This document shows, piece by piece, positions 196 through 45,533 of a stretch of DNA of 51,802 nucleotides. Every line of letters begins with the position of its first letter. The first letter of the stretch is position 1. Origin of the DNA: Acidimicrobiales bacterium. GTDB lineage: Bacteria; Actinomycetota; Acidimicrobiia; Acidimicrobiales; JACCXE01. The stretch spans positions 1 to 51,802 of the forward strand of contig DASZWD010000065.1 of the NCBI GenBank assembly GCA_035546775.1. The letters are read 5' to 3'. A program made the translations under genes and the position numbers. The notes under the pieces were generated by a model. That model saw only the letters and a program-made list of their open reading frames with translations. It did not search any database and was not told where the DNA came from.

Positions 196-1389
196 ATGCC
201 AGCCGCCGACGTCTACTACGACCCCTACGACTTCGAGATCGACACCGATCCCTATCCGGTGTGGAAGCGGTTGCGTGACGAGCACCCGCTGTACTGGAAC
301 GACAAGCACGAGTTCTTCGCCCTCAGCCGGTTCGAGGACGTGCGTACCGCGCTGATCGACGCCAAGACGTATTCGTCGGCCAAGGGCAGCCTGCTCGAAC
401 TCATCAAGGCCGACATCGAGATGCCGCCGGGTGTGTTCATCTTCGAAGACCCGCCCGAGCACGATCTGCATCGCGGCCTGCTCGGCCGCGTCTTCACCCC
501 CCGCCGGATGGCCGAGCTCGAGCCGAAGATCCGCGAGTTCTGCGCCCGAAGTCTCGACCCGCTCGTCGGGGCCGGGGGTTTCGACTTCATCGCCGACATC
601 GGCGCCACCATGCCGATGCGCACGATCGGCATGCTCCTCGGCATTCCGGAAGACGACCAGCAGGCGATCCGCGACACCATCGACGCCGGCCTGCGCATCG
701 AGGAAGACGGCGGCCGCCCGAGCTTCGACGGCGCGTCCTACGGCAGCGACTCCCAGTTCTCGGACTACATCGACTGGCGCGCCGAGCATCCCTCTGACGA
801 CCTCATGACGGACTTGCTCAACGCCGAGTTCGTCGACCGCGACGGCACCCTGCGCAAACTCACGCGTGAGGAGATCCTCGGCTACATCACCCTGATCGCC
901 GGCGCGGGCAACGAGACGACGACGCGCCTCATCGGCTGGACGGGCAAGGTGCTCGCCGAGCACCCTGACCAGCGCGCCGAAGTCGTCGCCGACCGCAGCC
1001 TGCTCGGCGGGGCGATCGAAGAACTGTTGCGCTACGAGCCGCCGTCGCCGGTGCAGGCGCGCTACGTCACCGCCGACGTCGAGCACTACGGCCAGGTCGT
1101 GCCCCAGGGCAGCGCCATCCTGTTGCTCAACGCATCGGCCAACCGCGACGAGCGCAAGTTCCCCGACCCCGACCGCTTCGACATCCACCGCGCCGCCGAG
1201 CAGCACCTGTCGTTCGGCTTCGGCATCCACTTCTGCCTCGGCGCCGCGCTGGCGCGCCTCGAAGGCCGCATCGCCCTCGACGAGATCCTCACGCGCTTCC
1301 CCGAGTGGGAAGTCGACTGGGACAACGCCGTGCAGGCGCGCACGTCGACCGTGCGGGGCTGGGAAAAGCTGCCGGTGATCGTCGGCTAG
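196..1389 (+). CDS. Cytochrome P450 (397 aa)
   Basis: A heme-thiolate monooxygenase of normal bacterial length (397 aa), soluble, with no membrane anchor. The I-helix oxygen-activation motif AGAGNETTT is at about residues 235-243, the ExxR motif (EELLR) at about 275-279, and the heme-binding loop FGFGIHFCLG at about 340-349 with the axial Cys near 347. These are the defining P450 features and all are intact. Such actinobacterial enzymes need a ferredoxin and reductase, neither of which is adjacent. A second P450 lies nearby on the other strand (4648-5880), but the two differ in the heme loop (FGFGIHFCLG against FGRGIHLCVG), so they are not a recent duplication. Substrate unknown; the neighbourhood suggests lipid, terpenoid or steroid oxidation. 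Confidence 0.95.
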   Translation: MPAADVYYDPYDFEIDTDPYPVWKRLRDEHPLYWNDKHEFFALSRFEDVRTALIDAKTYSSAKGSLLELIKADIEMPPGVFIFEDPPEHDLHRGLLGRVFTPRRMAELEPKIREFCARSLDPLVGAGGFDFIADIGATMPMRTIGMLLGIPEDDQQAIRDTIDAGLRIEEDGGRPSFDGASYGSDSQFSDYIDWRAEHPSDDLMTDLLNAEFVDRDGTLRKLTREEILGYITLIAGAGNETTTRLIGWTGKVLAEHPDQRAEVVADRSLLGGAIEELLRYEPPSPVQARYVTADVEHYGQVVPQGSAILLLNASANRDERKFPDPDRFDIHRAAEQHLSFGFGIHFCLGAALARLEGRIALDEILTRFPEWEVDWDNAVQARTSTVRGWEKLPVIVG

Positions 1390-1401: not shown

Positions 1402-2097
1402 ATGACCAAAGTCTCCGAACATCGTGCCGCTCTCGCCGGACTATCCGACTGGATGCCGTATCTCACGGCGCACAGTGGGTTGCCGGGGCCACGCGGCAAC
1501 CTCGAGCTGGTGGCCGCCTGCGGCGAGGAAGCCGACGCCATCCGGGCGACCGAGCTCATCGCGACGGGCGACGAGTTCGCCACCGTGTGTGGCCTCGTGG
1601 CCCTCGGCCGCCACGTCGGTGCCGGAGAACTTCGACACGTGCGCGTGCTGCACGAGTCCGCCTCCGACGAGCGGTGGCGCGTGCGCGAGGGTGTCGCCAT
1701 GGCGCTGCAACGCGCCGGCGACGACGATCTCGAGCGCGCCTTTTCGATCGCGGAGACGTGGGCCGGAGATGCTGATCCGCTCGTTCGTCGCGCCGCCGTT
1801 GCGGCCGTGTGCGAACCGCGCCTGCTACGTCGCCGCGCCTACGCGCGCCGCGCGCTGAGGTTGCTGCGCCGCGTCACGACGGACCTGGCGCGCTCGCCGT
1901 CGACCACCCGCAAGAGCGCCGCGACCCGAACGCTGCGCCAAGCATTGGGATACGGCTGGAGCGTTGCCGTCGCGGCGTCGCCCGACGACGGGCTGGCGGC
2001 GTTCGACAAGCTGGCGCAGAGCGAAGACGCCGATGTCGCGTGGATCGTGCGCGAGAACCGGAAGAAGGCGCGGCTGGCGCGACTGCTCGGCGGGTGA
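1402..2097 (+). CDS. HEAT-repeat-like protein (231 aa)
   Basis: A helical repeat protein without catalytic motifs. It contains repeated units such as ERWRVREGVAMALQRAG and DPLVRRAAVAAVCEP, spaced about 40 residues apart, typical of HEAT or armadillo-type repeats. The C-terminal third is very rich in Arg and Lys. There is no signal peptide or membrane segment, so it is probably cytoplasmic and acts by binding a protein or nucleic acid. The start at ATG 1402 lies 12 bases after the P450 stop, so the two are probably co-transcribed. It converges on the thiolase gene ending at 2128. The partner is unknown. Confidence 0.75.
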   Translation: MTKVSEHRAALAGLSDWMPYLTAHSGLPGPRGNLELVAACGEEADAIRATELIATGDEFATVCGLVALGRHVGAGELRHVRVLHESASDERWRVREGVAMALQRAGDDDLERAFSIAETWAGDADPLVRRAAVAAVCEPRLLRRRAYARRALRLLRRVTTDLARSPSTTRKSAATRTLRQALGYGWSVAVAASPDDGLAAFDKLAQSEDADVAWIVRENRKKARLARLLGG

Positions 2098-2127: not shown

Positions 2128-3759
2128 TTAGCGCGTCAGCAACATGACGCCCGACGGGGTGCCACCGCCGCTGGTGACCACGGCGACTTCGGCCCCACTG
2201 ACCTGGCGTTCTCCGGCGTCGTGGCGGAGCTGGGCAACGGCTTCGTAGATCAGGCCGAAGCCGTGGGTGCGGCCCTCGGAGAGCTGGCCGCCGTGGGGGT
2301 TGACGGGCACGTCGCCGTCGAGGGCGATGCGCCGGCCGCCGTCGAGCCAGTCCTGCGCGCCGCCGAGTTCGCAGAAGCCGAGCGCCTCGATCCACGTCAC
2401 GGCGTTGAACGTGAAGCCGTCGTAGATGAGCGCGAGGTCGACGTCGGCGGGCGTGAGCGACGCCCGTGACCACAAGTGGGCGCACTGGCCGATGACCTGC
2501 GGCTCGTGGGTGACCGTGTCCTGCTCCCACGAAACGCGCTCGAGGATCTGCGATCCGATGGCGTCGACGCGGATCGGTTGCGACGCGAGGTCAGCGACGG
2601 TGTCGGTCGCCGACACTACGACGGCGACGGACCCGTCCATCGGGACGTCGCAGTCGAACAACCCGAACGGTGTCGTGATCATGCGGGCGTTGAAGTAGTC
2701 GTCGGGCGTCATCGGGTCGCGGTAGACGGCGTGCGGATTGCGGCCGGCGTTCGTACGGCCGTTGATGGCGATCCACGACAGCAACTCGCGCGTCGCGCCG
2801 TAGCGGTGCATGTACTGCGACGCGTTCATCGCCAGCCAGTTCGCCGCCGAGGTCGCGCCGAACGGGGCGCGCCACTCGCCGTTGATGCCCGAGACGCGGC
2901 CACCGCCGACGCCACTGGCGCGGACCTGCCCGAGCGCGGCGTTCGTGGCTTCCCAGACGGTGCGGAAGCACAGCACGTGCCGGCACAGCCCGGCGTTGAT
3001 CGCCAGCATCGCCGCCATGAGCGAACCGGCGGGCCCGGGAATCTCGCCGCCACCGTTGAACCACGTCGGCCGGATGCGCAGCGCGTCCTCGACCGCGGTG
3101 ATGCCGCCTTCGCTCATGCCCATACCGGCCGCCCCCGGGTAGGTCGAGAGCCCGTCGATGTCGTCGACTGTCAGGCCGGCGTCGGCGATCGCCGCGAGGC
3201 ACGCGTCCATCGTCAGCGACAACGGGTTGACCATCAGGCGCCGGCCGTAGCGCGAGCGGCCGATCCCGGAGATGACAGAGTTGTGCTCGAAGCGTTCGGT
3301 GGTGAGCGGTGCCCGTGGCGTCCGTCGCGTCGGCGCCGGCACCGGGTTTTCGCCGTCGGGCTCGCCGGTCGGCACGAACAGCGGCAGCCACACGTCTTCG
3401 TGCTGTTCCAACTTCACGGCGACCCGCATGCCGATATGCACGTCTTCGGGGGTGCAGTCGACGATGTTCGTCGTGAGGCGGACGGAGGGGTCCTCGTCGA
3501 GGGCGACGTTGGCGATCACGTAGGGCGGCGGGAACGCCGGGAGCCACTGCTGATGGTTGACGGTGCAGCCGATCACCGTGGCGTTGCCGGACACGGCAGT
3601 TTGCGTGCGGTTGCGGCTGCGGCACACCTGGCAGATGGGCGCCGGCGGGTGGACCAGCGCGCCGCAGGCGCCGCAACTGTCGATGCGCAACACGCCGTCC
3701 TCGCCCGACGTCCAGAAGCCGCGGTTCGAGAAGTTCAGTTCAGGCAGCGGACGCATCAT
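2128..3759 (-). CDS. DUF35 (OB-fold/zinc ribbon) fused to Ltp2-like thiolase (543 aa)
   Basis: Two domains in one chain. Residues 1 to about 150 are a DUF35 module: a rubredoxin-like zinc ribbon with Cys 29, 32, 43 and 46 (CGAC...CQVC), then an OB fold. Residues from about 170 are an SCP2/lipid-transfer thiolase, beginning VISGIGRSRYGRR and including the late motif VNPHGGQLSEG. In actinobacterial steroid breakdown, Ltp2-type thiolases pair with the DUF35 domain of ChsH2 to act as a retro-aldolase on side-chain CoA thioesters, so a fused version could be a self-contained aldolase or acyl-CoA thiolase. The start is taken at ATG 3759; a longer frame goes to 3795. It overlaps the hydrolase 3' end by 20 bases and is last in the leftward P450-hydrolase operon. 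Confidence 0.85.
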   Translation of the reverse strand: MMRPLPELNFSNRGFWTSGEDGVLRIDSCGACGALVHPPAPICQVCRSRNRTQTAVSGNATVIGCTVNHQQWLPAFPPPYVIANVALDEDPSVRLTTNIVDCTPEDVHIGMRVAVKLEQHEDVWLPLFVPTGEPDGENPVPAPTRRTPRAPLTTERFEHNSVISGIGRSRYGRRLMVNPLSLTMDACLAAIADAGLTVDDIDGLSTYPGAAGMGMSEGGITAVEDALRIRPTWFNGGGEIPGPAGSLMAAMLAINAGLCRHVLCFRTVWEATNAALGQVRASGVGGGRVSGINGEWRAPFGATSAANWLAMNASQYMHRYGATRELLSWIAINGRTNAGRNPHAVYRDPMTPDDYFNARMITTPFGLFDCDVPMDGSVAVVVSATDTVADLASQPIRVDAIGSQILERVSWEQDTVTHEPQVIGQCAHLWSRASLTPADVDLALIYDGFTFNAVTWIEALGFCELGGAQDWLDGGRRIALDGDVPVNPHGGQLSEGRTHGFGLIYEAVAQLRHDAGERQVSGAEVAVVTSGGGTPSGVMLLTR

Positions 3760-4651
3760 CAAAGGCTTTCTGCAGAGCGCGCGCTTGCGCGTCACGGAAG
3801 CGCTGCGTGATCGCCGATCGTGGGCTCACGCTGTCGAAACCGTGAAACGCTCCGTCGACGACGAGCACCTCGCACTTCACGCCGGCAGTGTTGAGTCGAG
3901 CGGCGTAGGTGCAGTCCTCTTCGCGAAGAATGTCGAGCGAGCCCACGCCGATCCACGCGGGGGCAACGCCGCCGAGATCGGGGTGACGGGCCGGCGCCGC
4001 GAGGCCGTTGACGGAGGGCGAGCCGGGGTCCGTTCCCAGGTACGCCGACCACGCGAAGCGATTGCTGCGGTTGCTCCACAAGCGGGCATCACGGTCGTCG
4101 ACGTCGGCGCGCGCGGCGACGCGATCGTCGAGCATCGGATACGACAGCAGTTGGAACACGGGCCGGACGACGCCGCGATCGCGGGCCAGGAGCGCGAGTG
4201 CTGCGGCGAGCGCGCCACCGGCGCTCGCACCACCGATGGCGATGCGGTCGGCGTCGACGTCGTCGCGCTTAGCCAACCACTCGAGCGCGTCGTGACAGTC
4301 CTGGAGCGGCACGGGGAACGGGTGTTCCGGCGCGAGTCGGTAGTCGACGGCGGCAACGAGCAGCCCGAGGCGCGCCGCGATGACACGGCAGAACGCGTCG
4401 TCCTGCGCCGCGGTGCCCATCACGAAGCCACCGCCGTGCATCCACAGCAGCGCGCCCCGCGGTTCGGTGGCCGGGCGATGGAGCCGGAAGGACAGATCAC
4501 CATCAGTTGTCGTCTCGACGCCGGCACACGTGCGACCGCGCACACGCGCGTCGGCGCGTCGTAAGACGGGCAGCGTGCGCGGGCCGATCACCGCACGCGG
4601 CAGCACTCGGGCCAGGAGGCGGAGTTCGGGGTCGAAGTCCTTGACGCTCAC
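3740..4651 (-). CDS. Alpha/beta hydrolase, hormone-sensitive-lipase family (303 aa)
   Basis: A serine esterase of the HSL group (family IV). It shows the oxyanion-hole motif HGGGF at residues 72-76, the nucleophile elbow GASAG with Ser143, and plausible acid and base residues Asp240 (GSLD) and His270 (DGAFH). The length is usual for the family and there is no signal peptide, so it works inside the cell. The GTG start at 4651 overlaps the upstream P450 stop in a GTGA, implying translational coupling; a longer reading upstream would lie inside the P450. Expected role: hydrolysis of an ester or lactone made or taken up by this locus. The actual substrate is not deducible. Confidence 0.92.
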   Translation of the reverse strand: MSVKDFDPELRLLARVLPRAVIGPRTLPVLRRADARVRGRTCAGVETTTDGDLSFRLHRPATEPRGALLWMHGGGFVMGTAAQDDAFCRVIAARLGLLVAAVDYRLAPEHPFPVPLQDCHDALEWLAKRDDVDADRIAIGGASAGGALAAALALLARDRGVVRPVFQLLSYPMLDDRVAARADVDDRDARLWSNRSNRFAWSAYLGTDPGSPSVNGLAAPARHPDLGGVAPAWIGVGSLDILREEDCTYAARLNTAGVKCEVLVVDGAFHGFDSVSPRSAITQRFRDAQARALQKAFDDASAA

Positions 4652-5880
4652 GCCGCCGAAACCACGAGGGGCAGGCGGCGGAAGCGCCGCACCATGAGGC
4701 TGCTCTCGCGCTCCGGTGGATCCGACGGGTCCAGTGCGAAGCTCGCGGTCCTGGCCAGCACGCATCGCAGGACGACGTCGGCTTCGAGGCGAGCCAGCGG
4801 GGCGCCAACGCACAGGTGGATGCCACGACCGAACCCCAAATGGTGCCGGGGCGACGCACGGTCGAGTACGACTTCGTCGGGGTGCTCGTACACCGCCGGA
4901 TCGCGGTTCGCTGCGCCCCACATGAGCAGCACCGTCGCGCCCGCGGGCACTGGCGTTCCGAGCAGTTCCGTGTCCTGCGTTGCGTGGCGGAGGTGGTAGC
5001 GGAACGGCGACTCGAGACGCAGCATTTCTTCGACGAACGGCGTCACGAGTTCTGGTTTCTCGCGCAGTTGCGTCTGGAAGGCCTCATCGGTTGCCAGCTG
5101 CGCGACCGCGTTGCCGAGCAAGCTCGTGGTTGACTCGCCCCCGGCGCTCAGCAGCGTCTGGATGATCACGATCGCCTCGAGTTCCGTGAGGTCGCCGCTG
5201 GCGATGGCGGTGGCCGTCGCGCCGAGCAGTCCCGGAGTGTCAGGAGTGCTGGCGGACACTTGGTCGGTGATCCAGCCCAGGCTCAGCATCGAGTTCCCCA
5301 TGCGGACGCCGACTTCGTCGCGCGTCTGGGTTCCCGCCATCGTGGCGGTCGACTCGAAGGCGGCCGTGAGCAACATGTCGGGGTCGGCGTTCGCGAAGCC
5401 GATCAGGTCGGTGACCACGCGAATCGGAACCGCGTTGGCGACGTCGTGCATGAACTCCACGTGGCCTCGAGCGAGGCATGCGTCGATGTGGTTCTCCGCG
5501 AGCTGCTCGACGTCGGGCCGCATGGTCGCCATGCGACGAGCGACGAGTTCGGGGAACACCGCGCCGCGGTGGCGCGAGTGCACCGGGGGATCCGCGGTGG
5601 CGAGGGCGTCCATGCCCCCGGTGTCGAACGGCATCACCGCGGGCGTACCGTCGTCGGCGCGGTACACAATCCCGTGCAGGGTGGAGGAGAAGTCGGCCAC
5701 GCGATTCGCGGCTTCGGTGACGGCCGCAAACGACGTCACGAGAACGATGTCGGTGCCCGGTATGCGCCATACGGGCGTCTCCGCCACCAGCCGTCGGTAG
5801 AACGCATACGGGTCGGCGACGACGGCTGGGTCGAGCAGCAGGCTCGCCGACAGCTCTTTACTCAGCGCGGATTGGCTCAA
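4648..5880 (-). CDS. Cytochrome P450 (410 aa)
   Basis: First gene of a three-gene leftward operon. I-helix motif LSAGGESTTSLLG at about residue 240, ExxR as EEMLRLE, and heme loop FGRGIHLCVG near 348 with the axial Cys. All essential P450 signatures are present. The start is TTG at 5880, chosen because GGAAGGAG stands five bases upstream, and no ATG or GTG in frame has such a site. It is coupled to the hydrolase by a GTGA overlap. An inverted repeat at 5915-5944 sits upstream, shared with the divergent importer operon. Likely reaction: oxygenation of a hydrophobic substrate, possibly imported by the neighbouring ABC system (inference). Confidence 0.95.
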   Translation of the reverse strand: MSQSALSKELSASLLLDPAVVADPYAFYRRLVAETPVWRIPGTDIVLVTSFAAVTEAANRVADFSSTLHGIVYRADDGTPAVMPFDTGGMDALATADPPVHSRHRGAVFPELVARRMATMRPDVEQLAENHIDACLARGHVEFMHDVANAVPIRVVTDLIGFANADPDMLLTAAFESTATMAGTQTRDEVGVRMGNSMLSLGWITDQVSASTPDTPGLLGATATAIASGDLTELEAIVIIQTLLSAGGESTTSLLGNAVAQLATDEAFQTQLREKPELVTPFVEEMLRLESPFRYHLRHATQDTELLGTPVPAGATVLLMWGAANRDPAVYEHPDEVVLDRASPRHHLGFGRGIHLCVGAPLARLEADVVLRCVLARTASFALDPSDPPERESSLMVRRFRRLPLVVSAA

Positions 5881-5914
5881 CCCGAACTCCTTCCGAGGGC
5901 GGGCGGGACGCGGG

Positions 5915-5944
5915 GCAAACTATTACGATGTCAAAGTAGTTTGC
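5915..5944. promoter_or_regulatory. Inverted repeat, candidate operator between divergent operons
   Basis: GCAAACTA at 5915-5922 and its exact reverse complement TAGTTTGC at 5937-5944, separated by 14 bases, giving half-site centres 22 bp apart (about two helical turns). The spacer carries TGTCAA, which is a perfect -35 hexamer (TTGACA) on the minus strand. Position and symmetry fit a dimeric repressor controlling the P450 operon, the ABC importer operon, or both. No regulator gene is adjacent, so the cognate protein is unknown. Confidence 0.55.
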
Positions 5945-5959
5945 GCGTGGAAATGGCAT

Positions 5960-5990
5960 TCTACTGATTGTAGAGTGCGACTCTTATCGT
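5960..5990 (+). promoter_or_regulatory. Two small dyads and a candidate -10 before the importer operon
   Basis: TCTAC-tgatt-GTAGA (5960-5974) overlaps AGAGT-gcg-ACTCT (5972-5984), and the second abuts TATCGT (5985-5990), a TANNNT-type -10. Transcription would begin near 5997, after which GGGAGGG (5994-6000) could serve as a distant ribosome site for GTG 6012. The dyads would overlap RNA polymerase contacts, so they are candidate operators. Confidence 0.4.
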
Positions 5991-6011
5991 CGCGGGAGGG
6001 AATACAGGCTG

Positions 6012-7406
6012 GTGCAGCGGAGGCTTTCGATCGTTGTCGTCGTTGCGCTCCTGCCGCTGACGGCGTGTGGCGCCCGGTGGAACGACGCCCAGCGCGCCGA
6101 CATGCGCCGCCGCGTGTCGACGCTCGCTCAGTCGGGGCCCGCGGCCAGCGACGGCGGGTCCTCCGCCGGAGCGGGAAACGACAGCGTTGATGGAGGAACC
6201 GGCACCGACACCGGAAGCGGCAGCACCGGTTCGGGACCGGCGTCTTCCGGCACCGGGAGCAACGGCGTCTCCGCGGTGTCGAAGAAACTGCCGTGCGCTG
6301 CTCCTTCGACGGCGCCTGGCGTCACCGACACCGAGATCCGCATCGGTTCGATCTCGTCGCTCACCGGCCCGTCTCCTGGAATCGGCACCTCGGCCGCAGG
6401 CGCAGCGCGTGCCTACGTGGCGTACCGCAATGCGACCGGCGGGATATGCGGGCGCAAACTCGTCCTCAAAGAAGCCGACGACGGCACCGACAACGGCCAA
6501 TACCGCTCGATCATCACGGAGATGTCGAACTCGGTGTTCGGCGTCGCGGGTGGGTTCGCTCTCGGCGACGTGGGCGGCGTCGACGTGATTCGTCAAACCC
6601 GGATACCCGTCGTAAACGGCCCCGGCCAACAGGCCTCGGCCGATCTGCCGACGGTGTTCGACATGAACCCCAAATACGAGAACGAAAACGCGGTGATCGG
6701 CAAGTACAAGTTCCTGCACGATCACGGTGCGACGAAGGCGAGCGTCACCTATCTCGCCGTCGACCAGTCGCGTTTCGAAGCTCAGCTGCAGGAGCGGCTG
6801 ATGAAGGCCGCCGGCATCCAGATCGTGCAGGTCCAGGAGTTGCCGTTGAGCACGCTCAGCTACGACGCGCCCGCGCGCGCCGTCGCCAATAGCGGCGCCG
6901 ACTATCTCTTCTTCATCGGTACCGTCGACTCCAATCAGTCCATGGCGCGTTCGATGCAGGACACGGGCTACAAGGGCCTCAAGTGGCCCGAGTACTTCGT
7001 GTACACGTACGGCACGAACTTCATCCAAGCGACGGGCTCGGCGTCGGAAGGCGCGATCACGTGGCTGCGCAGCCTGCCGATCGAAGAGGCGAACTCGAAC
7101 AAGGAACTGGCGGCGTTCGTGCAATGGATGAATCGCGCGTCACCGAGTTTCGACAAGGACGCGTTCGCCGAAGACTCGTGGGCTGGGGCGAAAGCCTTCC
7201 TCGACAACCTTGAAGCTCTCAAAGGTCCGATCACGCGTGAGGCGTTCGTCGCACAGATGAATTCGGTCGACACCTTCGACGCCGGCGGCATGTTCGGCCC
7301 GATCCGCCTCGGCAAAGAGCTCACCAACGGCTGTTTCGTGGGCATGCAGGTCAAGAACGGCAAGTGGCAGCGGCTCGTGCCGGATTCGGGTTTCATCTGC
7401 CAATGA
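6012..7406 (+). CDS. ABC transporter substrate-binding lipoprotein, branched-chain amino acid type (464 aa)
   Basis: Solute-binding protein of the LivJ/LivK class (Peripla_BP_6 fold). The first 19 residues are a lipoprotein signal ending LTAC, with Cys19 as the lipid-modified residue. Then comes a Ser/Gly/Thr-rich linker to about residue 90 and the binding domain, starting near DTEIRIGSISSLTGP, with typical strands such as VVNGPGQQ and DYLFFIGTVDS. It should capture the substrate outside the membrane and pass it to the permease encoded next. The GTG start fits the signal peptide; the ribosome site GGGAGGG is 11 bases away, further than usual. Its stop overlaps the permease start (ATGA). In actinobacteria this family also binds aromatic, steroid-like and other carboxylic compounds, so amino acid specificity should not be assumed. 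Confidence 0.92.
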   Translation: MQRRLSIVVVVALLPLTACGARWNDAQRADMRRRVSTLAQSGPAASDGGSSAGAGNDSVDGGTGTDTGSGSTGSGPASSGTGSNGVSAVSKKLPCAAPSTAPGVTDTEIRIGSISSLTGPSPGIGTSAAGAARAYVAYRNATGGICGRKLVLKEADDGTDNGQYRSIITEMSNSVFGVAGGFALGDVGGVDVIRQTRIPVVNGPGQQASADLPTVFDMNPKYENENAVIGKYKFLHDHGATKASVTYLAVDQSRFEAQLQERLMKAAGIQIVQVQELPLSTLSYDAPARAVANSGADYLFFIGTVDSNQSMARSMQDTGYKGLKWPEYFVYTYGTNFIQATGSASEGAITWLRSLPIEEANSNKELAAFVQWMNRASPSFDKDAFAEDSWAGAKAFLDNLEALKGPITREAFVAQMNSVDTFDAGGMFGPIRLGKELTNGCFVGMQVKNGKWQRLVPDSGFICQ

Positions 7407-9304
7407 CCGAGCTGCTGCAGTTCACGCTGTTCGGTCTCATCCTGGGCTGCATTTACGCCATCGCGGCGATGGGCCTCGTACTCACCTACACGGTGACGGG
7501 CGTCTTCAACTTCGCCCACGGCGCCGTCGGCATGCTGGCGGCCTTCGGCTTCTACGAGTTGCACGTCAACGACGGCTGGCCGACACCGCTCGCGATCGTG
7601 GCGGTCGTGTTCGTGGGCGCGCCGCTCGCCGGGGTGGTCGTCGAACGGCTGCTGCGTCGTTTCCAGGGTGCGGACTACGCGACATCGCTCGTCGTGACGA
7701 TCGCGCTCACCGTCGGACTGCTCGGCATCGCGCTGCGCGCCTTCGATCCCGGTGAGGCGCGCCTGTCGCCGTACCTGTTCGGCAACCACCGCATCGTCAT
7801 CGCGTCCGTGCCGATCACGTACGACCGCATCGCGCAGGTCGTCATCGCAATCGCTGTCGCGATCGGCCTCCGCGTCCTGTTGTTCAACACACCGATCGGC
7901 GCCCGCATGCGCGCCGTCGTGGACGATCGGGAGCTGGCCAGCCTCGACGGCGTCCGCTCGCTCTTCGTGGCGCGGTTCAGCTGGATGATCGGCTTCATGC
8001 TCGCCGCCCTCGGCGGGGTGCTCTTCGCGGGTGGCCAGAACCTCAGCGCCATCGCGCTCACCCTCCTCGTGCTGAACGCGTACGGCGCGGCGATGATCGG
8101 ACGGCTCACCAGCTTTCCCATGACGATCGTCGGCGCGCTGGCACTCGGGCTGATCCAAGAATTGACCAACGTCAGCTGGCTGTATCCCGACCAGGCGTTC
8201 TTCCTCCGGCTCCGGCTTGCCATTCCCGGCCTGTTTCTCATCGTCGCCGTTTTGCTGGTCCCGTCGTTCCGCCTATCCGTTGGTCGCATCGTCGGGCGCG
8301 ACGAGCCGGCGGTACCGACGCTGCGCAAGTCCTTGCTCTCCGCTGTCGCCCTTGTCGTGTTTGTGGCGGTATTCGTCAACGCCATTCCCGCCGAGCAGCG
8401 CCGGCACGTCGTCGGCGCGCTCGTCATCGCCACGATCGCTTTGTCGCTGGTTGCGCTGACGGGGCTGTCGGGCCAGGTGTCGCTGACGCAGTACCTGTTC
8501 GTGGGCCTCGGCGCCTTCGTTACCGGATCGATCTCGCACGGACACTCCCTCACCGGGATGCTCCTCGGCGGACTGTTGTGCGCCGTCGTCGGCGCGCTGG
8601 TGGCGTTGCCTGCGGTGCGGTTGCGCGGACTGCACCTCGCGTTGAGCACGTTTGGCGTCGCGCTCGTCGGCCGCGAACTCATCCTCGGTGACGAACGCAT
8701 CCTCGGACAAGGCGGCCTCGGCGTCGGCCGGCCCAGCATCTTCGGCATCAACCTCGGGTCCGACGCCGCGTTCGCGATCTGGTGCGCCGTGATCTTCGCC
8801 GTGTTCGCCGTGCTCATCGGCGTCTTGCGGCGGAGCTGGTTCGGCCGGCGGCTGACCGCGATCCGCGACAGCGAGTTGGCAGCCGCGTCGCTGGGACTGG
8901 GCGTGCGCACGACCAAGGTTGCGGTCTTCGCGTTCTCGGCCTTCATCGCCGGATGCGCCGGTGCGCTCTTCGGTGGATGGCAGGGCGCGGCGCAGGGCTT
9001 GCAGTTCGATCCGATCAACAGCCTCGTCATCGTGTTGTTTGCGTATGTCGGCGGCATCACGACGGTGGCGGGCGCGCTGGTCGCCGGCGCGCTGTTTGCG
9101 TTGCTGAACTATGCAGAGGCGACCTTCCCGTCGATAGGTGGCGTGGTGTTCATCGGCGTCGCCGCCGCGGCGATCACGCTCGGCCGTCAGCCGAACGGGC
9201 TCGCGGGCATCGGCCTTGACGCCGTGCGTCAGATCAAGCGCCGCCTGCCGCGCACGGCGCGCCCGAACGCCGCGGTCGCACAGTCGGCGGTGGAGGCCGT
9301 ATGA
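7403..9304 (+). CDS. Fused LivH-LivM ABC permease (633 aa)
   Basis: Both permease subunits of a branched-chain-type importer in one polypeptide. The N-terminal half (about 1-300) begins LLQFTLFGLILGCIYAIAAMGLVLTYTVTGVFNFAHGAVGM, a LivH signature. The C-terminal half (about 325-620) has LivM features such as LTGLSGQVSLTQYLFVGLGAFVTG and IRDSELAAASLGL. Each half has multiple hydrophobic helices. It starts at ATG 7403, four bases overlapping the binding-protein stop, and ends overlapping the LivF start, so all are translationally linked. Fusion of LivH and LivM fixes the subunit ratio. The substrate path cannot be inferred from sequence alone. Confidence 0.93.
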   Translation: MTELLQFTLFGLILGCIYAIAAMGLVLTYTVTGVFNFAHGAVGMLAAFGFYELHVNDGWPTPLAIVAVVFVGAPLAGVVVERLLRRFQGADYATSLVVTIALTVGLLGIALRAFDPGEARLSPYLFGNHRIVIASVPITYDRIAQVVIAIAVAIGLRVLLFNTPIGARMRAVVDDRELASLDGVRSLFVARFSWMIGFMLAALGGVLFAGGQNLSAIALTLLVLNAYGAAMIGRLTSFPMTIVGALALGLIQELTNVSWLYPDQAFFLRLRLAIPGLFLIVAVLLVPSFRLSVGRIVGRDEPAVPTLRKSLLSAVALVVFVAVFVNAIPAEQRRHVVGALVIATIALSLVALTGLSGQVSLTQYLFVGLGAFVTGSISHGHSLTGMLLGGLLCAVVGALVALPAVRLRGLHLALSTFGVALVGRELILGDERILGQGGLGVGRPSIFGINLGSDAAFAIWCAVIFAVFAVLIGVLRRSWFGRRLTAIRDSELAAASLGLGVRTTKVAVFAFSAFIAGCAGALFGGWQGAAQGLQFDPINSLVIVLFAYVGGITTVAGALVAGALFALLNYAEATFPSIGGVVFIGVAAAAITLGRQPNGLAGIGLDAVRQIKRRLPRTARPNAAVAQSAVEAV

Positions 9305-10026
9305 CGACGGCGGTGGCGGCCGAGGTTTCGCCGCTGGCGTTGCTGGGAGTCGGGGCGGCGTACGGGCGCATCGAGGTTCTGCACGGCGTCGACATCGCCG
9401 TGCCGCGTCACCGCGTCGCCGCGCTGCTTGGCCCCAACGGCGCCGGCAAGACGACGGCGCTCGCGGTGATGAGCGGGCTGATGCAGCCGACGCGCGGTTG
9501 CCGTCATGTCGATGGCCGGCACGTCAACCGTGCGCGCGCCGACGAACTCACGCGCATCGGTATCCGCCATATTCGCGAAGGTCGTTCCGTGTACCCGAAC
9601 CTGAGTGTGCGCGACAACCTCATCGTCGCCGCGTCGGCGGGCGCATCCGCCGCGGCGATCGAAGAGGTGGCGTTCACGTTGTTCCCGCAGCTGAAGGCGC
9701 GCCACGCGCAACTGGCGGGCAATCTGTCGGGCGGTGAGAAGCAGATGTTGGCGCTCGCGCGCGGGCTCGGTGCACAGCCGTCGGTGCTGCTCATCGACGA
9801 GCTGTCGATGGGGCTGGCCCCGCTCGTGGTCGCCGAGCTGTACGAGACCGTCGCCAACGTCGCGGCGCAAGGTGTCTCGGTGCTCGTCGTCGAACAGTTC
9901 GCGCGCGTCGGTCTGCGGTACGCGTCGGAGGCCTACGTGATGGCGCACGGGACCGTGACCTACGCCGGGCCGAGCGCCGGCGCCGAAGACGCGGTGTACC
10001 GCGCCTACCTGGGGGCCGACAAGTGA
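9301..10026 (+). CDS. ABC importer ATPase, LivF type (241 aa)
   Basis: Nucleotide-binding subunit for the adjacent permease. Walker A GPNGAGKTT is at residues 44-52, the signature NLSGGEKQML near 141-150 and Walker B VLLIDELSMGL near 163. The text IRHIREGRSVYPNLSVRDNL is typical of LivF (Q-loop region). Length is normal for the family. It starts with an ATGA overlap with the permease and ends with a GTGA overlap with the secreted protein gene. The partner ATPase (LivG) is encoded two genes downstream at 11763. Confidence 0.93.
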   Translation: MTTAVAAEVSPLALLGVGAAYGRIEVLHGVDIAVPRHRVAALLGPNGAGKTTALAVMSGLMQPTRGCRHVDGRHVNRARADELTRIGIRHIREGRSVYPNLSVRDNLIVAASAGASAAAIEEVAFTLFPQLKARHAQLAGNLSGGEKQMLALARGLGAQPSVLLIDELSMGLAPLVVAELYETVANVAAQGVSVLVVEQFARVGLRYASEAYVMAHGTVTYAGPSAGAEDAVYRAYLGADK

Positions 10027-11378
10027 AGCTTCGGCTCTTTGGCGCGCTCCTCGTGGGCGCTGTCGCCCTTGCCCCGACCGCTTCGGTGGGCGCACAAACC
10101 TCCGACACTGCGCTCGGTGGCTACCAGGGCACGGCGGCCGGCTCGGCGTTACAGGTCGACTACACACCACAGGGGCTGCTGCCGCTGCCGTCGCTGATCG
10201 ACATCGGTTCGCCCGATGCCGTGGCGACGATCTCGAGCGGTCCTTCGACGTTCGCGCAGTCTTCGGTGCTAGATCCGGGCGACCTCCTCTACAACCCCGA
10301 CGCCCTGCTCACGCTGTTCTCGTCGCAGTACCCGTCGGGAACGTTGCCGACCTATCCGTTCCGCGTGTCGGCGAACTCCGGCTTCGGGGAGCCGTCAGCG
10401 GAGTCCAATCCGGCGCCGGGTCTCAACGCCACGGTCCGCGCCGAGCCCGACGGGTCACGTGCGAGCGCGTCGGCGCCGGCGGTGCAAGCGCCGCCGCTCG
10501 TCAATCTCGGGACCGCGTCGGCACTGGCCACGACGAAGATCAGCGGGGACACCGTGATCACGCATTCGCTCACCAAGGTGAGCGGCATTGACGTGTTCAA
10601 CCTCCTGACGATCGACTCCGTGGTGACCGATCTCACAGCCACGTCGCAGGGCGCGGGCAAGACACCGAAGCTCGAGGGCGGCACGAAGATCGTGGGCGCC
10701 AAGATCGCCGGGCGGCCCGTCACCATCGACGGCGACGGCGTGCACGTCCCGAAGAGTGCCCTGCCCGTGCCGAAGAGCCTCGGCGCCAGCCTCAACGACG
10801 CGCTCAAGCGTGCCGGCCTGCACATCACGGTCTCGGCGCCGATTCCGCTGTCGGACTCGTCGCACGGGCGGTTGGCTTCCGGCGGACTGCGCATCGACTT
10901 CGACAACTCGACGCGGTCGATCTCGGCGCTCGCCCAACTGTTCGACGCCATTCCGTCGATCGCCAGCCCGGTGCCGATGGTGCCGTCGGTCGACGACATC
11001 AAGGTCGCGCTGCAGGCGCGCAACGTCGCGGCCATCGAGCTGGCGCGCGGTGACGTCTCGCTGGCGACGACGAGCGCCGCCATCTTCGACGACGACACGG
11101 CGCTACCCGTGGCCGACCTGGGTGCGGACCTCGGCAACTACGACATCCCGTCGTCGCCCGACGTGGGCGCGCTGGTGCCGCGTCAGCCTGCGGCGGTGCT
11201 GCCGCGCACCACCACAGCGGCGACCACGAATCCGGTGTCGCCCTTCGGCGCCGGCATCGGCGGGCTGTTGCTGATCGCGTTGTTGCTGCAACCGTTCTTC
11301 GGCCAAGCGCTGGCGCGACTGTCCAACGGCGTACTGGCGCCCACCGGCGCCGAATCGTGTGATCGTGAGGAGCTATGA
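10023..11378 (+). CDS. Secreted, membrane-anchored protein of unknown function within the importer operon (451 aa)
   Basis: Not a recognised enzyme. Residues 1-25 form a Sec signal peptide (cleavage likely after SVGAQ). The middle is a Ser/Thr/Ala/Val-rich, beta-prone region lacking cysteine, and residues about 408-430 (GIGGLLLIALLLQPFFG) form a C-terminal membrane span followed by a short polar tail that holds the only Cys. That layout puts the body outside the cell, tethered by its C-terminus. It starts in a GTGA overlap with LivF and ends in an ATGA overlap with the next gene, so it is made together with the transporter. It may help present a hydrophobic substrate or organise the importer, but this is inference. 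It loosely resembles the beta-rich 'choice-of-anchor' surface proteins of actinobacteria. Confidence 0.85.
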   Translation: MKLRLFGALLVGAVALAPTASVGAQTSDTALGGYQGTAAGSALQVDYTPQGLLPLPSLIDIGSPDAVATISSGPSTFAQSSVLDPGDLLYNPDALLTLFSSQYPSGTLPTYPFRVSANSGFGEPSAESNPAPGLNATVRAEPDGSRASASAPAVQAPPLVNLGTASALATTKISGDTVITHSLTKVSGIDVFNLLTIDSVVTDLTATSQGAGKTPKLEGGTKIVGAKIAGRPVTIDGDGVHVPKSALPVPKSLGASLNDALKRAGLHITVSAPIPLSDSSHGRLASGGLRIDFDNSTRSISALAQLFDAIPSIASPVPMVPSVDDIKVALQARNVAAIELARGDVSLATTSAAIFDDDTALPVADLGADLGNYDIPSSPDVGALVPRQPAAVLPRTTTAATTNPVSPFGAGIGGLLLIALLLQPFFGQALARLSNGVLAPTGAESCDREEL

Positions 11379-11821
11379 CCGATATCGCAGACCGCGACGA
11401 GCGGTTGGCCGCCGGCGCGGAGGAACTTGCGGCGCGCGGCGACGGCTCGATCGTCAGCCAGCGCCAGTTCCTGCTCGTCGCGTCGGGGGCGCTGATGACC
11501 CTCGGGTTGACCGCCATCGTCCTCGGCTGGATCGGCGCCAGTCGCTCCACCCTGGTCGAAGAGCAGGTGCCGTACCTCATCTCGGGCGGCCTGCTCGGCG
11601 TCGCGCTGAGCATCATCGGCGCGCTCAGCTTCTTCAGTCACTGGTTCGTCACCGGCATCCGCGAGGCGCGCGTGCACGAAGCGGCGCGCCAGCGCGACCA
11701 CGCCGAACTCGTCGCCGCCATTTCGTCGCTGACCGACGCGCTCACGCCAAAGGAGGAGACGAATGGCACTGCTCGAAGCCCGCGGAGTTCGCGTTCGGTT
11801 CGGCGGACTCCAAGCCGTTGA
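11375..11821 (+). CDS. Two-TM membrane protein of unknown function in the importer operon (148 aa)
   Basis: A small integral membrane protein. Two hydrophobic segments are visible: about residues 32-53 (FLLVASGALMTLGLTAIVLGWIGA) and about 66-90 (LISGGLLGVALSIIGALSFFSHWF). A polar N-terminus precedes them and a helical, charged tail with a likely coiled coil (EARVHEAARQRDHAELVAAISSLTDAL) follows. It starts in an ATGA overlap with the secreted protein and overlaps the LivG gene by 59 bases, so its last 19 residues, a basic tail, are read from the LivG coding region in another frame. It is not a standard Liv subunit. Co-translation suggests an accessory of the importer. Confidence 0.8.
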   Translation: MTDIADRDERLAAGAEELAARGDGSIVSQRQFLLVASGALMTLGLTAIVLGWIGASRSTLVEEQVPYLISGGLLGVALSIIGALSFFSHWFVTGIREARVHEAARQRDHAELVAAISSLTDALTPKEETNGTARSPRSSRSVRRTPSR

Positions 11822-12488
11822 CGACGTAAGCCTCGACGTCGAGGCCGGCACCATCGTCGGCCTCATCGGACCGAACGGCGCGGGCAAGACGACCACGTTC
11901 AACGCGCTGTCGGGCGTGCAGGCGTGCAGCGGCAAAGTGGTGCTCGACGGGGCCGACGTGTCGCACGAGCCGGTGCACAAGCGCGCCACGCGCGGCATGG
12001 CGCGCACGTTCCAGCGCCTCGAGGTGTTCGGCTCGATGTCGGCGTTCGACAACATCCGCACCGCGGCCGAGATCGCCGGGCGCGCCCAGCGCCGCGGCAT
12101 CGGCGAAGCCGCGGCCACGGCGCGTGAAATCGTCGACCGCCTCGGCCTCGTGCCCGTCGCCGACCGGCGCGCCGACGCCCTGCCCACCGGCCAGGGCCGT
12201 CTTGTCGAGCTCGGCCGGGCGCTGGCGACGCGTCCCAAGATCGTGTTGCTCGACGAGCCGGCGTCGGGGTTGAACGAATCCGAAACCGAACGCTTGTCGA
12301 CGGTGCTCGAAGCGGTGCGCGACGACGGCATCGGCGTGCTGCTCGTGGAGCACGACATGGACCTCGTCATGCAGCTGTGCTCGACGATCTACGCCCTCAA
12401 CTTCGGCACCGTCATCGCCAGCGGCACGCCGGCGCAGATCCGCAAGGACCCGGCCGTCCAGGACGCGTACCTCGGCAGCGCCGTCTGA
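11763..12488 (+). CDS. ABC importer ATPase, LivG type (241 aa)
   Basis: Second nucleotide-binding subunit. Walker A GPNGAGKTT at residues 36-44, Walker B IVLLDEPASGLNE near 160, and the LivG-like text GMARTFQRLEVFGSMSAFDNI. The signature loop reads LPTGQGRLVELGRAL, where the usual LSGGQ is replaced; LivG proteins often deviate here (LSYGQQR), but the Pro-Thr is still unusual. The start at ATG 11763 has AAGGAGGAG just upstream and lies inside the 3' end of the two-TM gene. It closes the importer operon, ending 8 bases before the convergent SDR. Confidence 0.93.
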   Translation: MALLEARGVRVRFGGLQAVDDVSLDVEAGTIVGLIGPNGAGKTTTFNALSGVQACSGKVVLDGADVSHEPVHKRATRGMARTFQRLEVFGSMSAFDNIRTAAEIAGRAQRRGIGEAAATAREIVDRLGLVPVADRRADALPTGQGRLVELGRALATRPKIVLLDEPASGLNESETERLSTVLEAVRDDGIGVLLVEHDMDLVMQLCSTIYALNFGTVIASGTPAQIRKDPAVQDAYLGSAV

Positions 12489-12496
12489 CTCGCGGG

Positions 12497-13243
12497 TCAG
12501 GCGGGGGGTCGGGGAGCGACGATCAGGGAGTGGATGGCGTCGGTGGCGCCGGCGTGCAGGACCAGGTCGACGGCGTCGACGAGGCGCTGCACCGGCATGA
12601 GCGTGCCGCTCATGTAGCCGCGGGCGAACCACTGCGGCATGAGTTCCGAGACCAGCTCGCCGTCCCAGCCGTTGGCGAACTCGGTCATGGCGTCGCCCTC
12701 GCCGCCGGCGCATTCGCCCACGACGAGACGGGTGAAGCCGACGGTCGGGTGCTCGGCGCGCCAGGCGTCGACCAGCTTGTCGAGCGCCGCCTTGGTGACG
12801 GCGTAGGACGCCAGGCCGGGCCACGGCGGCGTCAACGACGCGCTGACCGACGACAGGTACACGGCGGTGCCATTCGACGCCCTGAGATGCGGGAGTGCGG
12901 CCCCGGTGGCGAGTGCCGCGCCCACGACGTTGGTGTCGAACGTGCGGTGCCACGTGTCGGCGTCGATGTCCTCGATGCGGGTGAGCGGGCCGACGGCGGG
13001 GGTGTACACGAGGCCGTCGATACCGCCCATCGCGGTGGCCGCTTCGTCGATCGCGGCGGCACACGACGCGGCGTCGGTGGCGTCACAGGCGATGGCGAGT
13101 GCGCCGTTGCCGGCTTCGGCGGCGGCGTCGGCGATGCGGTCCTTGCGGCGCGCCATGAGAGCGACTTGCGCCCCCTTGTGTGCCAATCCGACACCGATGC
13201 AGCGGCCCAGTCCGCCCGACGCTCCGATCACGACCACTCGCAT
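12497..13243 (-). CDS. Short-chain dehydrogenase/reductase (248 aa)
   Basis: NAD(P)-dependent oxidoreductase with a Rossmann fold. The cofactor motif GASGGLG is at residues 8-14, the active-site Ser in SSVSAS near 145, and the YxxxK motif as YAVTK near 158. The start at ATG 13243 is chosen because the protein begins MRVVVIGASGG. The longer reading upstream lies over the divergent promoter, and a -10-like TACTGT sits seven bases before this ATG. No Shine-Dalgarno is visible, which fits leaderless translation. It is divergent from the aldehyde dehydrogenase. Substrate unknown. Confidence 0.92.
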   Translation of the reverse strand: MRVVVIGASGGLGRCIGVGLAHKGAQVALMARRKDRIADAAAEAGNGALAIACDATDAASCAAAIDEAATAMGGIDGLVYTPAVGPLTRIEDIDADTWHRTFDTNVVGAALATGAALPHLRASNGTAVYLSSVSASLTPPWPGLASYAVTKAALDKLVDAWRAEHPTVGFTRLVVGECAGGEGDAMTEFANGWDGELVSELMPQWFARGYMSGTLMPVQRLVDAVDLVLHAGATDAIHSLIVAPRPPA

Positions 13244-13245
13244 CA

Positions 13246-13274
13246 CGCCGACAGTAAACGAACTACCGTCGGCG
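13246..13274. promoter_or_regulatory. Inverted repeat over divergent SDR/aldehyde dehydrogenase promoters
   Basis: CGCCGAC (13246-13252) and GTCGGCG (13268-13274) form a 7-bp-arm dyad with a 15-base spacer. The minus-strand -10 candidate TACTGT is at 13251-13256 and the plus-strand candidate TACCGT at 13264-13269, so a protein bound here would touch both promoters. The arms are GC-rich, so chance pairing is a real alternative. Confidence 0.35.
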
Positions 13275-13298
13275 GAACGAAGCCACCAGGAGGGTCCG

Positions 13299-14783
13299 AT
13301 GTCCGTACAAGACGAGCTGCGTTTGCTGGCCAACCCCGACCACTTTTTCATCGGCGGTGAATGGGTGGCGCCGTCGTCGGGCTCGGCTTTCGAGGTGATC
13401 GACTCGGCGACCGAGCAGGTCTTCATGCGCGTCGCCGAAGCGCAGGCACCCGACATGGACCGCGCCATCAGCGCGGCGCGCACCGCCTTCGACGAAGGTC
13501 CGTGGCCACGTATGACCCACGCCGAGCGCGCCAGTTACCTCGAGGCGCTCGGGGCCGGCATCGCGGCGCGCAACGACGACCTCGGCCAGATCTGGCCACG
13601 CCAGTCGGGCGCGCTGCACAAGGTGGCGCAGTACGCCGGCCTCGGTGCGCAGGCGACGTTCAACTACTACGCCGGGCTGGCCAACACGTTTGCGTGGGAA
13701 GAGCGCGCCACGCCGAGCGCCGGGGGCAAGTTCGGTCTGCTGGTCCGCGAGCCCGTCGGCGTCGTCGGCGCGATCATCCCGTGGAACGCGCCGCTCGGCC
13801 TTATCGCCAACAAGGTGGCACCGGCGCTGATCGCCGGTTGCACCGTCGTGCTCAAGGCGTCGCCCGAGGCGCCGGGCGAGGCCTACGTCGTCGCCGAAGC
13901 GGCCGAGGCGATCGGGCTGCCGCCCGGCGTGCTCAACGTGCTGACCGCCGATCGCGAAGTGTCGGAACTGTTGGTGCGCGACCCGCGCGTCGACAAGATC
14001 ACGTTCACCGGGTCGACGGCCGCCGGCCGGCGCATCGCGTCGATCTGCGGTGAGCGCATCGCCCGCTGCACGCTCGAACTCGGCGGCAAGTCCGCGGCGG
14101 TGATCCTCGACGACATGGACCTCGGGGTCGCCGCCAAGACGCTGTCGCGCGCCGAGTGCTTCCTCGCCGGGCAGGTGTGCTCGTCGCTGACGCGCATCGT
14201 GGTGTCGCGTTCGCGTCACGACGAACTGGTCGAGGCGCTGGCGGCGACGTTCTCGCAGGTGCGCGTGGGCGATCCCTTCGACGCCGAGACGCAAATGGGT
14301 CCGCTCGTGGCCGAGCGCCAGCGCGACCGCGTCCTCGACTACATCGCCAAGGGCGTCGATGCCGGCGCGCAGCTGGCCACCGGCGGTGGCCGCCCGGCGC
14401 ACCTGGAGCGCGGCTACTTCGTCGAGCCGACGGTGTTCGGCAACGTCGACAACGGCTCGGTGATCGCGCAGGAGGAGATCTTCGGCCCAGTGTTGTCGGT
14501 CATCCCGGCGGCCGACGAGCGCGACGCGGTGCGCATCGCCAACGACACCATCTACGGCCTCAACGCGTCGGTGTTCACCAACGACGTCGACCGGGCGCGC
14601 GAGGTGGCAGGCCAGTTGCGTTCGGGCACCGTCGGGCACAACGCGTTCCGTACCGATTTCGGCATCGCCTTCGGCGGGTTCAAGCAGTCGGGCATCGGCC
14701 GCGAGGGCGGCATCGAGGGTCTGCTGCCGTTCCTCGAGACCAAGACGGTCATCCTCGAGGACACGCCGAGCAACTACTCGTAA
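13299..14783 (+). CDS. Aldehyde dehydrogenase, NAD(P)-dependent (494 aa)
   Basis: Oxidises an aldehyde to the carboxylate. The catalytic Cys294 lies in GQVCSSLTR and the general base Glu260 in LELGGKS. The motifs VVGAIIPWNAPLG and ITFTGSTAAGRRI (cofactor region) and EEIFGPVLSVIPAADE are family typical. Length is standard. The start at ATG 13299 has AGGAGGG six bases upstream and gives the expected N-terminus (HFFIGGEWVAP near residue 16). It faces an SDR across a shared promoter region, so an alcohol-aldehyde-acid oxidation pair is plausible. It ends 6 bases from a convergent SDR. Exact substrate unknown. Confidence 0.95.
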   Translation: MSVQDELRLLANPDHFFIGGEWVAPSSGSAFEVIDSATEQVFMRVAEAQAPDMDRAISAARTAFDEGPWPRMTHAERASYLEALGAGIAARNDDLGQIWPRQSGALHKVAQYAGLGAQATFNYYAGLANTFAWEERATPSAGGKFGLLVREPVGVVGAIIPWNAPLGLIANKVAPALIAGCTVVLKASPEAPGEAYVVAEAAEAIGLPPGVLNVLTADREVSELLVRDPRVDKITFTGSTAAGRRIASICGERIARCTLELGGKSAAVILDDMDLGVAAKTLSRAECFLAGQVCSSLTRIVVSRSRHDELVEALAATFSQVRVGDPFDAETQMGPLVAERQRDRVLDYIAKGVDAGAQLATGGGRPAHLERGYFVEPTVFGNVDNGSVIAQEEIFGPVLSVIPAADERDAVRIANDTIYGLNASVFTNDVDRAREVAGQLRSGTVGHNAFRTDFGIAFGGFKQSGIGREGGIEGLLPFLETKTVILEDTPSNYS

Positions 14784-14789
14784 CGCGGT

Positions 14790-15623: not shown

Positions 15624-15630
15624 GCGACTG

Positions 15631-15650
15631 ATTATTCCCCCCAGGGGGGA
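15631..15650. promoter_or_regulatory. Leaderless-type promoter with abutting C6-A-G6 palindrome
   Basis: On the minus strand AATAAT (15636-15631) is five-sixths of the -10 consensus and lies seven bases before the SDR ATG at 15623. Directly joined to it, sharing base 15636, is TCCCCCCAGGGGGGA (15636-15650), a perfect 15-bp palindrome about a central A. It lies within the SDR core promoter and just before the ligase GTG at 15661, whose ribosome site would be the GGGGGGA half. It could be an operator or a G-quadruplex-prone tract. Confidence 0.5.
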
Positions 15651-15660
15651 TGATGCACTC

Positions 15661-16689: not shown

Positions 16690-16800
16690 TTAGAAGTCGT
16701 CGCGTTCGATGACGGTGGTACCGCCGCGGCGGCGGTAGTAGCGCGGGCCGCCGATGCCGCCCACGAGGAGCAGCACCAAGAGCACGAGGAGCAGGATCAT
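16690..16800 (-). CDS. Small single-pass membrane peptide (36 aa)
   Basis: Not a recognised family. The product is a run of Leu/Val/Ile at residues 2-13, a GGIGGPRYYRRRGG turn and a charged end (IERDDF), so it is almost certainly a membrane peptide with a basic flank. Two starts are possible: ATG 16806 (38 aa) and ATG 16800 (36 aa). I prefer 16800 because GGAGG stands eight bases before it, against two for the other, and because it overlaps the upstream stop as TGATG. It is thus coupled to the PheRS-like gene. Its function and any link to that protein are unknown. Confidence 0.65.
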   Translation of the reverse strand: MILLLVLLVLLLVGGIGGPRYYRRRGGTTVIERDDF

Positions 16801-45441: not shown

Positions 45442-45533
45442 AACTTAACGATCGTTCCGACGACTTCTCGCGAGAATATTGACAGTTCCGAGCAAGCAAG
45501 GCAATGTACGACTTCTGACCGAACGATTGATCA
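45442..45533. promoter_or_regulatory. Divergent TetR/ABC control region with three symmetric elements
   Basis: AACGATCGTT (45447-45456) is a perfect 10-bp palindrome six bases from the TetR ATG. TTCTCGCGAGAA (45465-45476) is a perfect 12-bp palindrome. TTGACA (45479-45484) is a perfect -35 box for the importer, with CAATGT 17 bases further as a weak -10. GAACGATTGATC (45521-45532) repeats the first element's AACGAT half and overlaps TTG 45527. The two AACGAT sites flank the promoter and are candidate TetR operators. Confidence 0.55.

Follow-up and report, generated by a model that had tools for sequence, protein, structure and literature searches.

The stretch of DNA analysed here (the window; 51,802 nucleotides) is contig C65 of an Acidimicrobiales draft genome (G000; 3.75 Mb in 75 contigs, 97.5% complete). 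On two divergent strands it carries the genes of a Liv-type importer together with those of cytochromes P450, an HSL-type esterase and a DUF35-Ltp2-like enzyme (Table 1). We put at about 0.5 the probability that this locus forms a catabolic island centred on an importer of the Liv type (HAAT family), itself from a distinct branch in actinobacteria, and devoted to a steroid-like or polycyclic isoprenoid acid. The substrate, reaction order and direction of transport that we infer are as follows. A lipid-anchored binding protein, aided by a choice-of-anchor-P (anchor-P) protein and a small protein with two transmembrane stretches (two-TM), would capture an amphipathic ring acid. The likeliest candidate is a steroid or steroid-like (polycyclic isoprenoid) carboxylate, free or as an ester, and the fused permease and two ATPases would carry it inward. 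The esterase would release ester groups, the P450s, a short-chain dehydrogenase (SDR) and an aldehyde dehydrogenase (ALDH) would oxidise the ligand, and the DUF35-Ltp2-like enzyme would, with its rebuilt active site, act as a retro-aldolase or lyase and shorten the coenzyme A (CoA) ester. The assignment of the substrate gains support from other members of the importer branch, which are tied to igr-type genes or KstR-like operators. We interpret the window copy as a paralogue of a steroid importer that has been re-targeted and lies outside the KstR regulon.

The importer branch and its steroid-gene neighbours

The closest paralogue of the window importer (45% identical) is found on contig C24 of the same genome (L061, G000:C24:1-17500; genes 3549-16308). 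Here, one strand encodes a KstR-like TetR regulator, an SDR, an acyl-CoA dehydrogenase, a ChsH2-like MaoC-DUF35 protein, a second acyl-CoA dehydrogenase, a ChsH1-like MaoC protein and Ltp2, followed by the importer genes in the order binding protein, permease, ATPase, anchor-P, ATPase and two-TM. The Ltp2 of this locus scores 693.6 bits against NF005892 (cut-off 469) and keeps the YDHF and GEAYIHG motifs. The ChsE and ChsH names were assigned from the order of the genes, their length and their type of domain, with no family match over cut-off, and the best family for the TetR protein is KstR, at 140.6 bits and below the cut-off of 280. The same type of arrangement is repeated in L062, from the same genus, and in L067, from another family. 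The permease tree places the window in a six-member clade with a support of 1.0 (window, L058, L059, L223, L302 and L060), one member of which, L059, has next to its importer a KstR-like gene and an Ltp2 that shares 74% identity with the Ltp2 of L061. The steroid link thus reaches the window's own clade.

Both extra envelope proteins, anchor-P and two-TM, are present in many loci of the branch. The model of the window anchor-P protein (pLDDT 72) has long antiparallel beta strands and a C-terminal membrane helix, and the protein could possibly offer a lipid-binding surface or a conduit. Naming it by its fold was abandoned, as the best Z score was 7.0, to outer-membrane beta proteins, with no useful Foldseek match. 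The two-TM protein of L061 (L061:3549-4079) has at its end a tail rich in Cys (TLYHRPDCASVKG...PCGMCNP), which has the look of a metal-binding segment and is missing from the window copy.

For the wider branch, 80 importer loci (L222-L301; 1.41 Mb) were collected by permease profile from Acidimicrobiia, Nocardioides, Frankiales and others, and searched with the pattern T[AG]GAACNNRTTC[TC]A. This pattern is modelled on the KstR consensus of mycobacterial work (TNNAACNNGTTNNA). The search returned 32 sites, with at least one in 30 of the 80 loci, against 0, 0, 0, 0 and 1 for five control palindromes of similar composition; many of the loci come from one genus, and the counts are not independent events. 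The strict form (TAGAACNNRTTCTA) occurs 20 times in these 1.41 Mb and 4 times in the whole 3.75 Mb genome. Nearly all sites are intergenic (43 of 45, some loci being counted twice), mostly 11-135 bp before genes that include those for ChsE, SDR, P450, KstR-like and binding proteins. In L069, L238, L282 and L284 a site precedes the binding-protein gene itself by 41-248 bp, and in several Nocardioides loci it lies kilobases away from the importer. A KstR-like site was also found for the paralogue L061, and two others in the same genome flank FadA5 (622 bits, cut-off 515) and an EchA19-like gene (NF005864, 412 bits, cut-off 316). HsaC, considered as a sign of steroid ring cleavage, was set aside; its one homologue reaches 219 bits (cut-off 366) and stands beside an MhpA-like hydroxylase.

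The window importer belongs to the HAAT/Liv family by its Peripla_BP_6 type I binding protein, BPD_transp_2 permeases and LivF- and LivG-type ATPases. It shares with LivKHMGF the binding-protein fold, the two permease domains and both ATPase types, but differs in its fused permease halves, its lipoprotein binder lacking the acidic residue that binds amino acids (see below) and its two extra envelope proteins. Mce4 and CamABCD/CamM take up steroids or steroid metabolites in actinobacteria, as is proposed for the branch. Mce4 is a different type of transporter, and CamABCD belongs to the ABC transporters (PMC8399759, PMC6498646). No MCE (MlaD) protein is encoded among the window importer genes, and Mce was rejected as a linked steroid importer, since the six MCE matches of the genome form one operon on contig C55, unlinked to the window. 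A second Liv permease gene lies elsewhere in the window (45479-49468, plus strand; open frame of 1329 amino acids), with matches at G000:C65:46247-47659 at 32% identity.

A genome survey found mce4 to be confined to mycolic-acid bacteria and steroid uptake elsewhere not to have been identified (PMC4810484). In Nocardioides simplex (CP009896), the gene most strongly induced by phytosterol (59-fold) is KR76_25195, annotated as no more than an "ABC amino acid transporter" and lying in cluster C with kstR2 (PMC7807495). Later work on this species reported that cholesterol and lithocholate induce an Mce operon (PMC7593942); uptake through Mce and through Liv-type systems may thus exist side by side. 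Tentatively, and at a little less than even odds, we propose that actinobacteria without Mce4 import steroids by a KstR-controlled Liv-type transporter with anchor-P and two-TM partners. In the same proposal, the window copy would be re-targeted to another polycyclic acid and accompanied by a lyase family (YDGF...SEGR) relying on a third combination of catalytic residues, so far undescribed. A literature search, conducted mostly without subscription papers, found none proposing Liv-type steroid importers and none joining KstR with branched-chain amino acid transporters. For actinobacteria that degrade steroids but have no Mce4, the branch offers a candidate for the missing uptake system that is testable in cultured Nocardioides too, N. 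halotolerans DSM 19273 (L243) being one strain that has the branch. The branch is of more interest than the single window locus.

The binding protein, the Ltp2-like enzyme and the control region

The closest solved structure to the binding protein, by profile as well as by fold, is 4N03 from Thermomonospora curvata, whose title names it as the binding protein of a fatty-acid ABC transporter. It ranks first in a search with a profile of 34 relatives (E 5e-29), and the model of the window protein (pLDDT 84) aligns with it over 357 residues at Z 34.0 and a root-mean-square deviation of 3.4 A, 1.6 Z units ahead of the next fold. At 18% identity, the ligand is not transferable. In Atu2422 (3IP5), which binds amino acids, the Asp of a GDG stretch is the acidic residue that holds the amino group. 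The profile column aligned with this Asp is not acidic, which argues against ordinary amino acids as ligands and names no other ligand. An invariant Tyr333 lies near this column, and two Cys (441 and 463) are likewise invariant.

The DUF35-Ltp2-like enzyme has its best PDB match in 6OK1 (Ltp2/ChsH2). In TcLtp2, Tyr294 of the YDHF motif acts as base, Tyr344 as acid and His296 sits in the oxyanion hole, and the Comamonas bile-acid aldolase Sal uses YDCY instead (PMC12329534). The window enzyme carries the motifs YDGF and SEGRTHG, and it retains the thiolase fold, the DUF35 partner and Tyr294 (YDxF). Compared with the igr operon and the Ltp2-ChsH2(DUF35) aldolase of cholesterol side-chain breakdown, it has in common the DUF35 partner, a thiolase-fold lyase, the Tyr294 base and a nearby P450. 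It differs in its fused chain, in the residues at positions 296 and 344, in its score against the Ltp2 family (262.7 bits against NF005892, cut-off 469) and in the lack of ChsE and ChsH1 nearby, whereas L061 has the true set. With Sal (PMC12329534) it shares a thiolase-fold aldolase architecture, a DUF35 partner and the lack of the Ltp2 Tyr344 acid; Sal has Cys304 in YDCY where the window enzyme has Gly. Judged by its sequence, the window enzyme is a member of an Ltp2-like family that keeps the base and replaces both other tested residues, and retro-aldol activity is a reasonable guess. If this is true, the YDGF...SEGR family would represent, after Ltp2 and Sal, a third way of building the active site. 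A second DUF35 and Ltp2-like pair, about 50% identical, is encoded by separate genes elsewhere in the genome (L196, G000:C17) and has YDGF likewise.

As in the preliminary description of positions 2128-12488, which had reported a shared control region of about 130 bases with an 8-bp-arm repeat, the two strands diverge from a 131-bp region that holds an exact palindrome. When as many as 3 mismatches are tolerated, the window still contains this palindrome a single time, where 0.01 occurrences would be expected, and its putative role is that of an operator. The arms AAACTA and TAGTTT at a spacing of 10-18 bp (AAACTAN{10,18}TAGTTT) define two genomic sites, namely the window palindrome and the promoter of the L061 operon. 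Although its arms are similar to those of a KstR site, the window palindrome differs in core and spacing, and we do not claim it as such a site. A second, imperfect palindrome (GCATTCTAC-TGATT-GTAGAGTGC; 5956-5978) lies 11 bp past the first.

Conserved linkage and alternative explanations

Linkage and presence of the locus genes were compared across 397 genomes of the order, the relatives in the searched collection being mainly metagenome-assembled genomes of Acidimicrobiia/Acidimicrobiales. In the sole clear importer orthologue (L058, G055:C200; permease 69% identical), a single strand encodes anchor-P, permease, ATPase and binding protein together with SDR (61%) and P450a (73%), and the DUF35-Ltp2 orthologue of the same genome lies on a separate contig with different neighbours. 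Orthologues of the DUF35-Ltp2-like enzyme (66-71% identity) were found in 17 other genomes, accompanied by SDR and P450a in L178, by SDR in L185 and by P450a at no more than 20 kb in L184, L189 and L191; the SDRs of L178 and L185 are 63-67% identical to that of the window. The window ALDH family (cluster c10) also recurs near DUF35-Ltp2 and P450a in relatives. P450a is present in 27 of the 48 genomes with DUF35-Ltp2 and in 14 of the 349 without (p 6e-19, shared ancestry ignored). A correlation of DUF35-Ltp2 with P450b (p 1e-12) likewise ignores shared ancestry and is found chiefly within two families. The conserved partners P450a, SDR and ALDH thus belong with the set, which extends past 2128-12488.

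A conserved divergent unit of P450b-HSL-DUF35 and Liv genes was found in none of the 397 genomes, and in L058 and its genome the former genes are unlinked to the importer, so that the view of the two divergent operons as one conserved locus is not supported; the unlinking in relatives that the preliminary description had named as a refutation was observed for this pairing. No homologue of P450b in the 397 genomes exceeds 53% identity, and none was seen beside this HSL and DUF35-Ltp2. We interpret the P450b-HSL pair as most likely a local addition. The preliminary description is thus partly supported. Of its steroid-, terpenoid- or cyclic-acid-like substrate, a bulky hydrophobic acid stands, with a steroid-like compound as the best guess from 4N03, the missing acidic residue and the steroid genes of the branch, while its Ltp2 label needs care, as one of three tested residues is kept.

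Several observations weigh against a steroid-like ligand for the window copy. Four positions of the binding protein that are conserved in the branch differ in the window protein and its orthologue (S183A, F125G, D200V and A177G), among them Ser183, present in 32 of 32 relatives. The alignment puts Ser183 beside Phe77 of Atu2422; by its title, structure 3IPC is the F77A mutant of that protein in complex with leucine. The ligand may therefore not be a steroid, and on these substitutions we read the window protein as having probably changed its ligand. In the enzyme, Ltp2 His296 is replaced by Gly and Tyr344 by Arg; like the kept Tyr294, both replacements are invariant in the 20 sequences compared. 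The window holds no KstR-like site, and its locus no ChsE or ChsH1 gene. Its palindrome has a spacing of 14, compared with 10 at the L061 steroid operon, and a different core, so that one regulator need not serve both; the repeat was not seen in the importer-orthologue locus L058. Finally, the neighbourhoods of the DUF35-Ltp2 orthologues hold CoA-transferase III, an APH-type kinase with an acyl-CoA dehydrogenase, enoyl-CoA hydratase and SDR, and look like a setting for general acyl-CoA degradation. No KstR-like site was found in these neighbourhoods (324 kb), or in the DUF35-Ltp2 and P450b neighbourhoods together (0.67 Mb).

These acyl-CoA surroundings without KstR-like sites are the main reason to keep as a strong rival a non-steroid hydrophobic acid, whether terpenoid- or hopanoid-derived, cyclic, or a branched or long-chain fatty acid. 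It would be handled by the same importer and enzymes, with the DUF35-Ltp2-like enzyme serving an acyl-CoA pathway that includes the CoA-transferase, the APH-type kinase and acyl-CoA dehydrogenases. The changed binding-protein positions and the fatty-acid title of 4N03 favour it as well. The ties of the importer branch, the clade-mate L059 and the same-genome paralogue to true Ltp2 or igr genes speak against it, and we regard it as possible, with a substantial minority of the probability. In L178, L180, L181, L183, L185, L186 and L190, the APH-type kinase adjoins the acyl-CoA dehydrogenase in the vicinity of the DUF35-Ltp2 orthologue, a pair reminiscent of ACAD11/LvaA-type 4-hydroxyacyl-CoA breakdown.

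We consider it unlikely that the divergent units are unrelated and that a general amino-acid-type Liv importer stands among catabolic genes by chance. The genome has 26 Liv permease matches (about 20 Liv systems) and the divergent pairing is not conserved, as such a coincidence would have it. Nevertheless, the L058 importer is co-oriented with SDR and P450a, themselves partners of DUF35-Ltp2 elsewhere, two extra envelope proteins accompany many importers of the branch, and the binding protein lacks the amino-acid-binding acidic residue and is closest to 4N03, so that it is not plainly of the amino-acid type. An assembly accident or a recent gene mixture without functional unity is very improbable: the draft state of the genome, the absence of the exact gene set from every other genome searched and the absence of P450a, P450b, DUF35-Ltp2 and importer orthologues, at the thresholds used, from the only same-genus genome (G001, 77% complete) are outweighed by the clustering of P450a, DUF35-Ltp2, SDR and ALDH, from both sides of the importer, as one set in other genomes, by 4-bp gene overlaps and by a composition that is even across the locus (window G+C 0.69).

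Organisation of the locus

The tight coupling that had been described on each strand was confirmed. On the minus strand, P450b overlaps the HSL gene by 4 bp and the latter overlaps DUF35-Ltp2 by about 20 bp; on the plus strand, the genes of a complete Liv importer and its two membrane-linked proteins overlap successively by 4, 4, 4, 4 and 59 bp.

Table 1. Features of the locus, in window coordinates
Feature	Position	Strand	Remarks
Cytochrome P450 (P450a)	196..1389	+	PF00067; conserved partner; outside the range first described
HEAT-repeat protein	1402..2097	+	PF13646; starts 12 bp past P450a
DUF35 (Zn ribbon + OB fold)-Ltp2-like thiolase-fold fusion	2128..3759 (frame open to 3795)	-	PF01796, PF12172, PF22691
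HSL-type alpha/beta esterase	3740..4651	-	PF07859; PDB 7WOL; LipP1 family below cut-off
Cytochrome P450 (P450b)	4648..5880	-	PF00067
Divergent control region, 131 bp	5881..6011	.	G+C 0.557
Operator-like palindrome	5915..5944 (arms 5915-5922 / 5937-5944)	.	GCAAACTA-N14-TAGTTTGC
Substrate-binding lipoprotein	6012..7406	+	PF13458; lipobox Cys19, Ser/Gly/Thr-rich linker
Permease, LivH and LivM fused in a single chain	7403..9304	+	PF02653 twice
ATPase, LivF type	9301..10026	+	Family match
Choice-of-anchor-P protein, secreted, beta-rich, C-terminal membrane anchor	10023..11378	+	NF040603, 34.3 bits (cut-off 27)
Small two-TM protein (two hydrophobic stretches read as transmembrane helices)	11375..11821	+	Matches no family
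ATPase, LivG type with BCA_ABC_TP_C	11763..12488	+	Family match
Short-chain dehydrogenase (SDR)	12497..13243	-	PF00106; conserved partner; outside the range first described
Aldehyde dehydrogenase (ALDH)	13299..14783	+	PF00171; outside the range first described

The HSL-type esterase has both its HGGG and GGASAGG motifs intact. The closest solved relative of P450b is CYP144 (5HDI; E 1e-79, 271 bits), the next PDB match reaching 154 bits. The start of the SDR was placed at MRVVVIGASGG, which gives a length of 248 amino acids, as in its L058 orthologue. For the HEAT-repeat protein, no homologue was found in the related loci compared. Further downstream, the window encodes a single-chain protein of 373 amino acids resembling phenylalanyl-tRNA synthetase (PheRS; 16800-17921, minus strand), with a PheRS alpha core and an FDX-ACB domain. 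Its architecture resembles that of mitochondrial PheRS, whereas bacterial PheRS normally consists of two subunits.

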